From: Hyperoplus lanceolatus
Taxonomy: Eukaryota > Chordata > Actinopteri > Uranoscopiformes > Ammodytidae
Direction: 5' to 3'
Assembly: GCA_026929865.2 (NCBI GenBank)
Contig: CM049410.1
Span: 24,435,001 to 24,499,000, forward strand
DNA: 64,000 bases
The translations under genes and the position numbers were made by a program. Positions 28,501-34,500 of the stretch are shown here, in pieces. The notes under the pieces were generated by a model. The model was given only the letters and a program-made list of their open reading frames with translations. It made no database searches and was not told the origin of the DNA. Each line of letters starts with the position of its first letter. The first letter of the stretch is position 1.

Positions 28501-31500
28501 AAATGGTAGGGAAATATTGGAATTGGAACGCAGGGATACATTTTATATATATATATATATTTTTTTTTTCATTGAGTTGAGGGATACTGCCTTTCTAGTG
28601 CAATGGTGCCACTGTCTTCAGCAGTCTTACATTTTACACTGGTAATCTTAAATGCAATGCGTTTCTTTCTCCCGACAGGATCCTAGGTGAGGAGCTGGGC
28701 CGTCACCACAGGTTTATGAGAGAGTGGCTCTGCCCCCCTGTGTTATCACCAAGGCCAACTGTTAGTCCAGGGTGGGCAAAAAGGGGGCACAACACCATTC
28801 ACTTTCCTGCTGGTAAAAGGGTGGAGCTGCTTTGTGTGCGTGCACATTGGACATTATTTGAGGGTGGAATCATTTTGGAGAATGCTTGTAAATAACATTT
28901 GTCAAAATCAGTGAAGGTAAGGTAACCTGTCAGTACACAGCCTAGGCTCTAAACAGGCATGATGCTAGCTATGGTGGGCCCTCTGTTTACATACCCTTCG
29001 TTTACATACATTACTGTAACCTCATAAAAATAATGTTATTTCACATTGAATGGAAATAAGTTTGTATAGTAAGATGTAAAACTATAATGTATTATTGACA
29101 ATAACTAACTGATTGAGTGCTACATAAAGTTGTTTCAAATATTGTACAAAATTCCTTTTCCCTACTTAGTATTTATATAATGTAAATATTGTTTAGGTTA
29201 TGTTTATCTTATTCTACTCTATATTTTGTATCGTTCCGATTACACCGTGGGCCAGTGATAAACGCCATTTTGATTCTGATGTATGTCTTGCATATATCAG
29301 AACTGACTTTGAAGACTCACCACAGATTTTGAGTGGCGCCTCGAGCTCCAGCAGGATTGGCTGACTGAGGAAGATCTCGCGTGACTTCAGACAAAGGCCA
29401 CGAATCTCCCCCTCCGTCAACTGGACATTCTTCCCCGGTCGAGAGCCCTTGACTGGAAGAAAAGTTTAAAGTTAGTTAAGTATTGTCAATTGCCACAGAC
29501 AGTCACACAAGGTTATTGAACTCTGTCTTTCCGCTAACCCCTCCCATCCCCACACACACGCAATTCAAGAGGGGGGGGGGGGGGGGGGTTCTCACACAGG
29601 GTCAGCCTTAGTACAGCACCCTATGGAGCAGTTCAGGGTTAATTGTCTTGCTCAAGGACACAATGGTAGAGATGGTGGGCACAGTAGATGCCATCCTCCC
29701 ACCCATCCTAAATAAGGGGAGATAAATGAAAAGGTGTTGTATGAGATATAATAACACCACAAAGACACTGCTATGTTCTTAAGAGCTGTAAGAAAGATTG
29801 AATATAGAAGGATATTTATGAAAGTATAGCAATGAAACAAGATCCTTTGAATTAAAGCCAGACCGCCAGATGGGGAAATGAACACCTCCCACCAGACAAA
29901 TGTTGAATAATTCTGTTAGCAGTCCAGACCTAAAGCCATTCCAGAAGGTAAACGCATCATTTTAAAGTTAGGGTGGCTCGATTATGGCCAAAATTATGAT
30001 TGTAATGATTTGGATTAAAATTGGGATCACGATTACTTACACAATAATTACATTTGATTTAGAAACCTGGTCCAATTATCAACTTTTTTTTCTCATTTAT
30101 TGGAATTTGGAAAAAATAACTATTTTTTATTTATTTATTTATTGCATTGTTTTTATTCGGCCAATTATTTGAACATTATCAAATGCAAACTAAAAAGCAA
30201 TAAAAAAAAAAAGCGATCCTCGGCAACAAATAAGCAATTCCAGTGATCCTAAATTACTAACACAAGATATCATTTGAAGAAAAAAAAATCAACCACATAA
30301 CAGCGAGTCTGTGCACTGTGCAGAGAGCTGCAGCTTCTAAAGAACTGCTGATCAGAGGAAACCAGCCCGAGGTCGACAGCGTCACAAACACCTCTTTCTG
30401 TTTGGAGTTCAAACTCAAACTGAGCAAAAGGACGTGGAACCCACTTCCCCCTTCTAGGCCATGTAGCTGCCGTAGCAAACACACTGCAGACACTTAATGA
30501 GTTCTCTTGTATGCGCTGTAAACAAACAAATAATATCATCCCGTGGGCTATGAAAACACTGCTTCTGTAAAGAGTTGAGACAAAATTACATGAAATATGA
30601 ACTGTTTTACCATGTGATAATGAAGTAAACACTGTGTCCCTGTCAGCTGGCTACTTTCTCTGATGCTATCTGAGGAATTGAGCAGGTTTTTCGAGTCTCA
30701 AGTCTCTCGTTTGCAACACAGACTTAACGGAGCCAAACACAACACCATGGTAAAGACTTGAACAAGGAGGAACTCAATTCATTTCACTGATATCCATTTG
30801 ACTTAAAAAGGTGGAGGCAGTGATTCTGGAGAACGCTTGTTGTCAAAATCAGTAAATATCTCCTCAAGACCCGCTACCTGTAGGTACTGTGTGTGCCCTG
30901 AAAGAAAAAGAGCCCAGTGTTAATACACAGCCTAGGCTCCATAAACAGGCATGTAACTGGCTATAGTTGGGCCACCTTTGTTGATGTTCCATTTGTTCAT
31001 ATACCAGTTTACAGAGCCTAGACTTTGTATTAACACCAGATATTTTTCAGCGCCCCACACACACACACACACACACACACACACACACACACACACACAC
31101 ACACACACACACACACACACACACACACACACACACACACACACACACACACACACACACACACACACACACACACACACACACACACACACACACACAC
31201 ACACACACACACGAAAGGTAGTGGAACATGAGGAGAAATTCACTGATTTTGACAACAAGCGTTATCAAGAATATCTGACTCCACCTTTTAAACAACTGTT
31301 ATGTACGGGTTTGTTTTGGGTGTGTTTCTTTGTTCTGTGTTTCTTTTGGTTGCCACTGATTAAGTGAGCAGGTGTGCTGCTCACTTAATCATGCTCACCT
31401 GGTGTAATCAGTGCCCAGTACTTAAGCAGCATGGTAAGCCTCAGTCTGTGCCCCTGCTCTGCTCACTGCCATGCTGCTGGACTGTTGCTGCTCAACTGTG

Positions 31501-34500
31501 GTTTTCTAAAAGTTAAGTTTAAGCTTTGAGTTTGTTAAGTTGCTGATCTGTCGTTTGTACCGGTTAAGTTTGATACTTTTGTTTTTTTGAATTAAATACG
31601 CATCATTTTACAACCTGACTCCTATTTACCCTTTTAACTGTTTTCAAGTTACAGTCCCTTTACCCCTAGTCAAACAGGGCGTAACAATTGGGGGGCTCGT
31701 CCGGGATCAAAAGAACTTTCCCATCACCAGAGTTTTTTTTATTGGAGTTGGTAGTAGTTTCTTAGTCCCCCTGATGTTTCTGGCAGGCAGTGAGCCAACA
31801 ACGCTCATCAGAGCCTAAGGAGTATGCTGTCCTCAGAGGGTGGGGGCCCCTTCATCTTCTTCAGGGGGAGACGGTACAGTTCGGTGGTCTCCGGGAGGAG
31901 ACGGTTCGGTGGTCGACAGTTCGGTGGTCTCCGGGAGGAGACAGTTCGGTGGTCGACAGTTCGGTGGTCGACAGTTCGGTGGTCGACAGTTCGGTGGTCG
32001 ACAGTTCGGTGGTCTCCGGGAGGAGACAGTTCGGTGGTCGACAGTTCGGTGGTCGACAGTTCGGTGGTCGACAGTTCGGTGGTCTTCGAGAGGAGACAGT
32101 TCGGTGGTCTTCGAGAGGAGACAGTTCGGTGGTCTTCGAGAGGAGACAGTTCGGTGGTCGACAGTTCGGTGGTCTTCGAGAGGAGACAGTTCGGTGGTCT
32201 TCGAGAGGGAGACAGTTCGGTGGTCGACAGTTCGGTGGTCTTCGAGAGGAGACAGTTGGTGGTGACAGTTCGGTGGTCTTCGAGAGGAGACAGTTCGGTG
32301 GTCTCGAGAGGAGACAGTTCGGTGGTCTTCGAGAGGAGACAGTTCGGTGGTCTTCGAGAGGAGACAGTTGGTGGTCTTCGAGAGGAGACAGTTCGGTGGT
32401 CGACAGTTCGGTGGTCTTCGAGAGGAGACAGTTCGGTGGTCGACAGTTCGGTGGTCTTCGAGAGGAGACAGTTCGGTGGTCTTCGAGAGGAGACAGTTCG
32501 GTGGTCTTCGAGAGGAGACAGTTCGGTGGTCTTCGAGAGGAGACAGTTCGGTGGTCTTCGAGAGGAGACAGTTCGGTGGTCGACAGTTCGGTGGTCTTCG
32601 AGAGGAGACAGTTCGGTGGTCTCCAGTTCGGTGGTCTCCGGGAGGAGACAGTTCGGTGGTCGACAGTTCGGTGGTCTCCAGTAGGAGGCATCCTCCCCTT
32701 CCCCTCGTCCGGTGTCCTCCAGTGGGGCATTTTTTCCGTTCCCTGACAACGTGTGCTTTGTGTGCTTATGGAAAAAATGTTAAGACTCTTGATATTTGTT
32801 TTTTTAACAAACACTATGTGTTTGTATTTATGGTGGGGGGTGTTATGTACGGGTTTGTTTTGGGTGTGTTTCTTTGTTCTGTGTTTCTTTTGGTTGCCAC
32901 TGATTAAGTGAGCAGGTGTGCTGCTCACTTAATCATGCTCACCTGGTGTAATCAGTGCCCAGTACTTAAGCAGCATGGTAAGCCTCAGTCTGTGCCCCTG
33001 CTCTGCTCACTGCCATGCTGCTGGACTGTTGCTGCTCAACTGTGGTTTTCTAAAAGTTAAGTTTAAGCTTTGAGTTTGTTAAGTTGCTGATCTGTCGTTT
33101 GTACCGGTTAAGTTTGATACTTTTGTTTTTTTTTAATTAAATACGCATCATTTTACAACCTGACTCCTATTTACCCTTTTAACTGGTTTTCAAGTTACAG
33201 TCCCTTTACCCCTAGTCAAACAGGGACGTAACAACAACACACCATGGATCAATTGCTAGAATGGATGAAACGGCAGCTTCTCACAGGCTCTCAAATGACT
33301 TATATCAATGGCACTGGGTACTCTCAAACTCATGATCAAAATATTTGCACATTGACGTGCCAGCTGTAGGGTGCGGAGGTGATGTCAGGTTACTATGACT
33401 GTATATCAGTCACTCACTACATGTGCTACTCGATGCTAAAGAAGATCCCATAACAAACTGTACAAGCTTTCAAGGGAGGAGGCTCATTCCCACCCAACTA
33501 ATTACTAGTCCAGCCGACTGAACTAGTAATGTATGTACAAAAGTCAACCCCAAAGCTCACCTCTTCAAGAAAAGACACCTCAATCCACCCATACCACACC
33601 TGATTTAATAGTATTTCATCGCTTAATTGTATTTGATGTAAAGCGTATTTGAGCCCCGTCCAAAAAAATGCTATATAAATACTATCAGTGATTACTAAAG
33701 TGGAGACAGACTCATCGACAGTCATTTCCAAGCTTGGGTGTTAACAGAGATCTCTGCACTACGTTTATGGGTTTGACTGAATCAGTTGTCGGGTGTTGAC
33801 GGGTTACCAGACGTACAGATGAACACAAAACAACCAAAGTGAGTCAGAAGAAAGAAGGGCGAAAAATAACAGTGGAACTACTTTTTTTTTTTAAACAATA
33901 TAGCCTTGATTGTACTAATGCAAACTAGAAGGACATTCCGAGGCAAGGATACAAAATGATGCATCAAATAATAATAGTTCCTCTGTAAATTCTGATGACA
34001 GTTACTCATGACGATGGCTGTCCGTGCAATGAATGAACAAGATATTCCAGTTGAACATCAGCAGGAAAAACTACCGATTACTTTCACATTGTCACTATTA
34101 AGCAACAATGTTGTTTGATATGAACCCTACTTCCTTCTAAATATCAAGTCAATTTGACCTCTTAAACCAACGCTTAAATTACATTGCTAAACATTCCAAG
34201 CCAACAGCACTCACACAAAGATTAATTGTATATGCAGTTGCCTTTGTGTTCAAATTAGTTTGTCTTTGATGAAAACTGATCAGATTTTCCCAATTAAGCA
34301 GATTGTATGTGAAAAAGGTACTAGAAGGAGTCAGTGATTCTGGAGGACGCATGTTGTCAAATTCCTTTTTTGTCAAAATCAGTGAAAATCTCATCAAGAA
34401 CTGTATATGCGGAAGAACAAAAAAACTGGGGTTGATACACAGCCTAGGCTCAGGATTTTCTTTCAGTTACACACAGGTAGCAGATCGTGAGGAGATATTC

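Follow-up and report, generated by a model that had tools for sequence, protein, structure and literature searches.

A protein-less LTR retrotransposon family of Hyperoplus lanceolatus with arrays of hairpin units, probably derived from Gmr1-like Gypsy elements

How can a long terminal repeat (LTR) retrotransposon without any protein of its own have inserted recently, and where did the tandem repeat that fills most of its interior come from? The question is raised by a stretch of 64,000 nucleotides from Hyperoplus lanceolatus (GenBank assembly GCA_026929865.2, contig CM049410.1, positions 24,435,001 to 24,499,000 of the forward strand), here called the window and numbered from its first letter; contigs and loci elsewhere in the genome carry our working labels (C and L numbers). 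An LTR element of 1937 bp spans positions 31297-33233 of the window, which confirms the observation of an earlier note made from the sequence letters. This element belongs to a non-autonomous LTR family that is small and has been active recently. We consider it probable (about 0.7) that this family derives from a Gmr1-like Gypsy element, with a SCAN-type Gag and with integrase ahead of reverse transcriptase, that it is moved in trans by a helper, and that its array is a by-product of a deletion junction.

The element lies on the forward strand between two perfect ACAAC target duplications (31292-31296 and 33234-33238, read from the sequence). LTR comparison placed the 5' LTR (390 bp, TGTTA...TAACA) at 31297-31686 and the 3' LTR (393 bp) at 32841-33233; the only differences between them are a single substitution and three gaps of one base each. 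The earlier note had called the element young from its near-identical LTRs, TG...CA ends and duplication, and this stands. A 35-nt palindrome within the 5' LTR (31357-31391; folding z -5.4 with 13 flanking nt) recurs in the 3' LTR at 32901-32935. It is kept in old LTRs (L061, L024, L025), partly through a two-sided A-T to G-C change, and its loop is flipped in L024 and L025, as by hairpin inversion. The 1154-bp interior consists, in order, of an AT spacer, a primer binding site (PBS), a leader, the array, a 3' stretch with a hairpin, and a polypurine run. Both replication signals named in the earlier note are present: the PBS (31689-31707) matches the tRNA-Pro 3' end apart from one additional G, and the polypurine run GGTGGGGGG (32832-32840, sequence read) is broken by one T. 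In the other five young copies with two LTRs the PBS has five G, and two of these five carry one G-to-A change further on. The leader follows at 31708-31877, the array at 31878-32689 and a non-coding stretch, found by genome search to be common to family members, at 32690-32806. An 8-bp hairpin, ACAAACAC..GTGTTTGT (32807-32825; z -2.8), which old relatives keep, precedes the polypurine run. The element has neither gag nor pol, as had been stated before: none of seven open frames across the array matched a retroelement family in Pfam, and the two matches of one frame, PYCO1_repeat and HSF, fell below the curated cut-offs and are read as chance on a repeat. The other five young interiors (475-1037 bp) are likewise non-coding and hold only leader, array and 3' stretch. 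Rfam families and tRNA genes were looked for in the window and none was found; plasmid records searched with the LTR and leader gave no match.

The genome searched comprised 806,742,258 bases. The LTR search, in which the best 40 of 83 first-look candidates were scored, returned at least 46 matches; the leader and the 3' stretch gave 11 matches each, at 12 loci together. Array units are present at 10 of the 12; the C3 locus has no array and one unit-like hairpin, and at the C10 locus no array unit was seen. Identical family members with a full gag-pol interior, with the array confined to the window, would have spoken for a local expansion; none was found among these matches. The earlier note proposed comparing unit numbers among copies, and six young copies with both LTRs carry from 4 to 39 units: the window copy (C16; 39 units, 1154-bp interior), C15:17.5M (29 units, 1037 bp), C15:14.8M (26 units, 883 bp), C7:20.2M (21 units, 768 bp), C12:27.2M (17 units, 709 bp) and C4 (4 units, 475 bp, 3' LTR interrupted). 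The unit pattern alone counted 39, 24, 26, 20, 16 and 3; the totals given here also include units with an altered core, recognized by the spacing of the matches. Perfect, locus-specific 5-bp duplications (ACAAC, CAGAG, GTGTC, GCATA and GCATT) flank five of the six copies, that of C4 included; the C7:20.2M copy has a damaged 3' LTR and no duplication. The young unit pattern has 84 matches in the genome, all within eight family loci, and its reversed control has 0. Hairpin units also survive in old relatives on C11, C15:8.0M, C13 and C23, with about ten at C11 and one or two at C13 and C23. Two further copies (C20, L058; C7:33.9M, L059) have N runs inside the array, which makes their unit numbers uncertain. 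A solo LTR on C12 is flanked by a GGCAT duplication. At 16 loci (L015-L030, forward-strand matches), the sequence around the LTR matches revealed target duplications at some solo LTRs and no new PBS-bearing copy besides the known loci. Because these are recent insertions without coding capacity, mobilization in trans, presumably by Gmr1-like helper proteins, is the reading we adopt; the earlier claim that the element must borrow proteins is supported by a young, protein-less family with the array in common.

The array of the window copy accounts for 812 of the 1154 internal bases (70%) and consists of 39 units, 23 long (24-26 bp, mostly 25 bp and with a hairpin) and 16 short (13-15 bp, mostly the long unit minus the hairpin top). 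Its best Tandem Repeats Finder score, 989, is far beyond chance. The earlier estimate of about 810 bases in 15- and 25-bp units is thus accurate; the alternation it described is not strict, as short units occur up to four in a row and long units up to five. The 25-mer folds as GUCUYC-GNRA-GGAGAC. The 15-mer equals the 25-mer minus ten bases, and only one of the 25 possible ten-base deletions yields it, namely removal of the hairpin top. Since a single deletion fits and no bases are repeated at the break, skipping of a formed hairpin is suggested. A rarer 15-bp unit type lacks the loop and the 3' arm instead. The unit may also resemble the D arm of tRNA-Pro.

Unit number changes faster than the LTRs. 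The 5' LTRs of C12 and C15:14.8M show zero substitutions between them, yet the two copies have 17 and 26 units, respectively. The LTR distance within copies is 0.0025 for C12, 0.0026 for the window copy and C15:14.8M, 0.0106 for C7 and 0.0131 for C15:17.5M. The first and last units are identical in the window copy, C7:20.2M and C15:14.8M, and their arrays differ in between. The C12 array matches this subgroup in its last unit and is one base off in its first; those of C15:17.5M and C4 diverge more.

A search with the leader of an old relative (L081) led to loci that share the leader following the PBS, its first ~45 nt in the window copy, and that have coding remains: C3:20.0M (L093), C16:14.0M (L094) and the decayed C8:6.2M (L095). 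When the leader was aligned without the PBS, 0, 0 and 1 of 500 simple shuffles, respectively, did as well or better. L094 encodes a SCAN domain (E 1e-15, above the cut-off) and L093 a partial one (E 4e-5, below it); L095 has no plus-strand frame of at least 75 amino acids. Searches for the integrase zinc domain (H2C2) and the integrase core scored the best 150 of 586 and the best 150 of 687 candidates, respectively, and at the L093 locus both domains are among the listed matches. On C5, an integrase core (8906371-8906703) lies upstream of an RNase H (8904362-8905138) on one strand; beyond the RNase H come a short, array-free 3' end and then an LTR 94% like that of L093. We infer that core and RNase H belong to one element, placed by their coordinates and not by one read-through sequence. 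An old LTR of the present family (L017, C5:8903275-8903667) starts about 35 bp past the 3' LTR of a Gmr1-like coding element, with no clear target duplication. According to the cited passages, SCAN is a homologue of Gag in Gmr1-like Gypsy elements (PMC4592553), and Gmr1 carries integrase ahead of reverse transcriptase (PMC2582038 and PMC8220671). The SCAN-type Gag at the leader-sharing loci, together with integrase before RNase H at a related locus, points to Gmr1-like Gypsy as the donor lineage. Of the autonomous relative anticipated by the earlier note, the same PBS and leader were found at loci with coding remains, and a closely similar LTR was not found on a coding element among the best 40 of 83 LTR candidates.

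Several further candidates were rejected. Two LTR-like matches on C16, 10.7 kb apart, were tried as the frame of a coding element; judged by eye, none of the 11 open frames of at least 90 amino acids resembled an LTR-element protein. PBS-pattern loci on C8 (two), C17, C16:23.2M and C5:21.9M share the PBS alone, as do two on C9 beside a RING/B-box-like host gene (by eye) and one on C14 with a Gypsy integrase. Matches to the 3'-hairpin pattern on C21, C20:21.7M and C10:21.7M appeared by eye to be decayed or chance. The query that we take to be the tRNA-Pro 3' end had 66 exact matches in the genome, two of which overlap PBS-pattern matches. At C84:914-28625 such tRNA-Pro 3'-end sequences form a tandem array, mostly in pairs, every 1.2 kb. 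In a Gypsy-type copy at C14:3214205 (L076), the PBS extends over ~27 further bases complementary to tRNA-Pro and is followed by an integrase frame; it is mismatched at the position taken as A58, and the extended PBS may stem from a tRNA primer copied past the modified base.

A possible birthplace of the array emerged from a related hairpin core, whose units mostly measure 29-31 bp and which has 178 matches at up to one mismatch in the genome and 0 in the control. About 100 of the 178 places are listed, exact ones first, which leaves most one-mismatch places outside the list; exact matches fall at 24 loci, and arrays occur at at least 24 loci. Five array loci were read (L089-L092 and L096). The tail of the integrase zinc domain (...GKPNQKTPPAPLHP in L096) marks the start of the array in four of these loci. 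L096 and L092 retain the domain; L089 and L091 retain the tail only, behind a gag zinc knuckle. In L096 the H2C2 domain (E 7e-20) passes directly into the array, as ...APLHPVPSVSSGG repeats, and the array stands in place of the integrase core. The frame continues from the zinc domain straight into APLHPVPSVSSGGHPVPSVSSGG..., and the related predicted protein P0002 has APLHPIPAVGEPFERILIDCVGPLP; from this difference, the first half of the unit appears integrase-like, and its other half resembles new sequence attached where the deletion occurred. The reading frame is preserved by 30-bp units (L089, L096) and broken by 31-bp units (L090, most of L091); arrays of the latter kind are therefore not maintained by coding. 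Among the 11 closest H2C2 copies (at least 84% identity, query locus included), nine have a core listed 36-37 bp further on, and no exact unit place falls within 8 kb of any of them. Arrays are present at the two that lack a listed core, as read from the sequence at the query locus C1:41.6M and as judged by coordinates at C8:459k, and also at a more diverged locus, C8:20.7M (L092). The 30/31-bp units share with the window 25-mer the core TTCGG..TCTCCAGTGGGAGAC and a similar terminal unit (GGTCTCCAGTAGGAGGCATCC versus GGTCTCCAGTGGGAGACATCC), and both kinds of array have the same place before the 3' end. The 25-mer may therefore descend from these units.

Under our preferred reading, the element would be transcribed from its own LTR, and a Gmr1-like helper would package its RNA and prime it by way of the shared region made up of the end of U5 (the 3' part of the LTR), the PBS and the leader, before integration with 5-bp duplications. 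In an ancestor, a deletion would have left a junction where the integrase zinc domain ends, and the hairpin unit would have arisen there. During reverse transcription the array would grow and shrink by strand transfer and hairpin skipping, the 15-bp unit forming from the 25-bp unit when the polymerase skips the hairpin, and persistence of the array would need no function of its own. The earlier note had suggested that the array could be a packaging or recombination signal; as a signal inherited from the helper this is not supported, because no listed unit occurs at the loci with coding remains that share the leader or near relatives that keep the core, and the C5 3' end has no array. This absence comes mainly from unit listings and from one 3' end that was read. 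We accordingly read the array as a by-product of replication, and the shared leader would be the better candidate for a packaging signal.

Several observations weigh against this derivation. Likeness at the U5 end is uneven, with 0, 15 and 183 of 500 shuffles as good or better for L094, L093 and L095, respectively. The L094 locus is damaged: its zinc domain contains a stop, and the core is not among the matches listed. The LTR search (best 40 of 83 candidates) turned up no closely similar LTR on a coding element. At L090, no zinc-domain tail was seen ahead of the array. Absence of arrays at core-bearing copies was judged by exact unit places, with one such 3' end read, and the proposed origin of the 25-mer in the 30/31-bp units is drawn from shared core, terminal unit and position rather than from a tree. 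Pieces of array fold near shuffle level (z +0.24 to -1.9). Finally, hairpin units persist across a lineage with LTR differences of up to ~25%, which could also mean selection.

The strongest rival, although clearly less likely, takes up this last point: the array would be a functional signal in cis, acquired once the element had split from the helper, its hairpins binding helper Gag or promoting dimerization or strand transfer and so outcompeting the helper RNA. In its favour, the hairpin unit is kept in at least two LTR families and at 24 exact-match loci, and it remains in old and young copies while gag is gone. Of 175 extracted 16-mers, 154 have all six pairs (152 of 165 among those starting with GT, leader hairpins excluded), and nearly all widespread stem variants still pair, via G-U. 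However, the extraction favours stem-like words, units are copies of one another, and pairing is kept in five of the 19 kinds of stem change and lost in 14. The near-shuffle folding of the array, the lack of an exact unit listed near core-bearing relatives and the C4 copy with its 4 units also argue against it. A broader version is somewhat less probable still: hairpin arrays at integrase deletion junctions would be a repeated, selected innovation of Gmr1-like parasites, in which a multimerized RNA hairpin helps protein-less elements to use helper particles and unit number evolves with each round of reverse transcription.

That the array is filler, holding the RNA above a minimum packaging length, was a suggestion of the earlier note and is kept as an unlikely rival. 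Five of the six young copies have 17 to 39 units with the flanking stretches in place, as filler would predict. But the C4 copy, with 4 units, a 475-bp interior and its own duplication, indicates that a high unit number is not needed; the C3 relative has no array and one unit-like hairpin, although that copy may not have moved in such a form. Derivation from an endogenous retrovirus instead of Gypsy is very improbable. The tRNA-Pro primer would fit it, as tRNA-Pro priming is common in some retroviruses, but loci with the same PBS and leader show a SCAN Gag and a Gypsy-type zinc domain and core. An assembly or local-expansion artefact in the window copy, to which single-base indels in the repeats and the N runs in two arrays might point, is the least credible, and as an account of the existence of the array it is already refuted: ten loci carry units, hence the array is not peculiar to one assembled locus, and end units are shared within a subgroup of copies as described above.

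The window element directly adjoins the end of a palindromic repeat resembling a miniature inverted-repeat transposable element (MITE), at 30803-31292. Its ends, 30803-30895 and 31200-31292, are inverted copies (81%), and a (CA)78 run lies inside. Related stretches occur elsewhere in the window, for example at 14070-14419 and 53503-53843. Directly beside a MITE-like copy, at 53848-54281, is a 24-bp minisatellite of 18 copies with 96% matches.

Large retrotransposon derivatives (LARDs) are non-autonomous elements with a conserved non-coding interior, as is the family described here. LARDs are longer than 4 kb, whereas the window element has 1937 bp. Gmr1 of Gadus morhua is the reference for Gmr1-like Ty3/Gypsy elements in the cited passages of PMC2582038, PMC8220671, PMC4592553, PMC4131045 and PMC11117352. 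Relatives that share the leader and PBS resemble it in their SCAN-type Gag, and the locus with an L093-type LTR does so in having integrase upstream of RNase H; in contrast, the window element is non-coding, and its array was not found with core-bearing relatives. Animal terminal-repeat retrotransposons in miniature (TRIMs), reported from bivalves (PMC6934838) and Echinococcus (PMC4558846) and as Helenus/Ajax (PMC10886601), are described in the passages cited as protein-less and are thought to depend on helpers. They share with the present family LTRs, an interior running from PBS to polypurine run, short duplications, presumed mobilization in trans and solo LTRs, although the bivalve TRIMs are described without a clear PBS (PMC6934838, in the part cited). 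The same part of PMC6934838 gives TRIMs as less than 1000 bp with terminal repeats of 100-250 bp; the window element, at 1937 bp with LTRs of 390 and 393 bp, is larger on both counts, and its interior is mostly tandem repeat. Plant Ogre/Tat Gypsy elements carry variable minisatellites between pol and the 3' LTR (Gmr9/GmOgre, PMC3305785; Lathyrus Ogre, PMC7004042, as cited), for which an origin by replication errors has been hypothesized (PMC7004042, cited passage). As here, tandem repeats precede the 3' LTR and unit number varies by copy. Unlike here, the plant arrays in those passages belong to coding elements; the window copy has no pol, and in the present case the family is non-autonomous, the array sits at a pol deletion and the lineage is Gmr1-like. 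The earlier note knew of no element with exactly this interior. For the exact interior that seems fair, since no title or abstract opening listed by open-licence searches that combined Gmr1 or fish LTR elements with tandem repeats describes this design; as a general feature it does not hold, internal minisatellites of plant LTR elements being known from the cited parts of PMC3305785 and PMC7004042. Among Gmr1-like Gypsy elements we file the family as a new, non-autonomous variant, apparently analogous in its array to the plant Ogre minisatellites.

The family would thus offer an animal counterpart of the plant Ogre minisatellites, with a likely birthplace, the integrase deletion junction, and a likely mechanism of unit change, loss of the hairpin top. 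Copies with near-identical LTRs and differing unit numbers would make the array a counter of replication errors. The findings also suggest that non-coding parasites of Gmr1-like elements can last until their LTRs have diverged by about a quarter.

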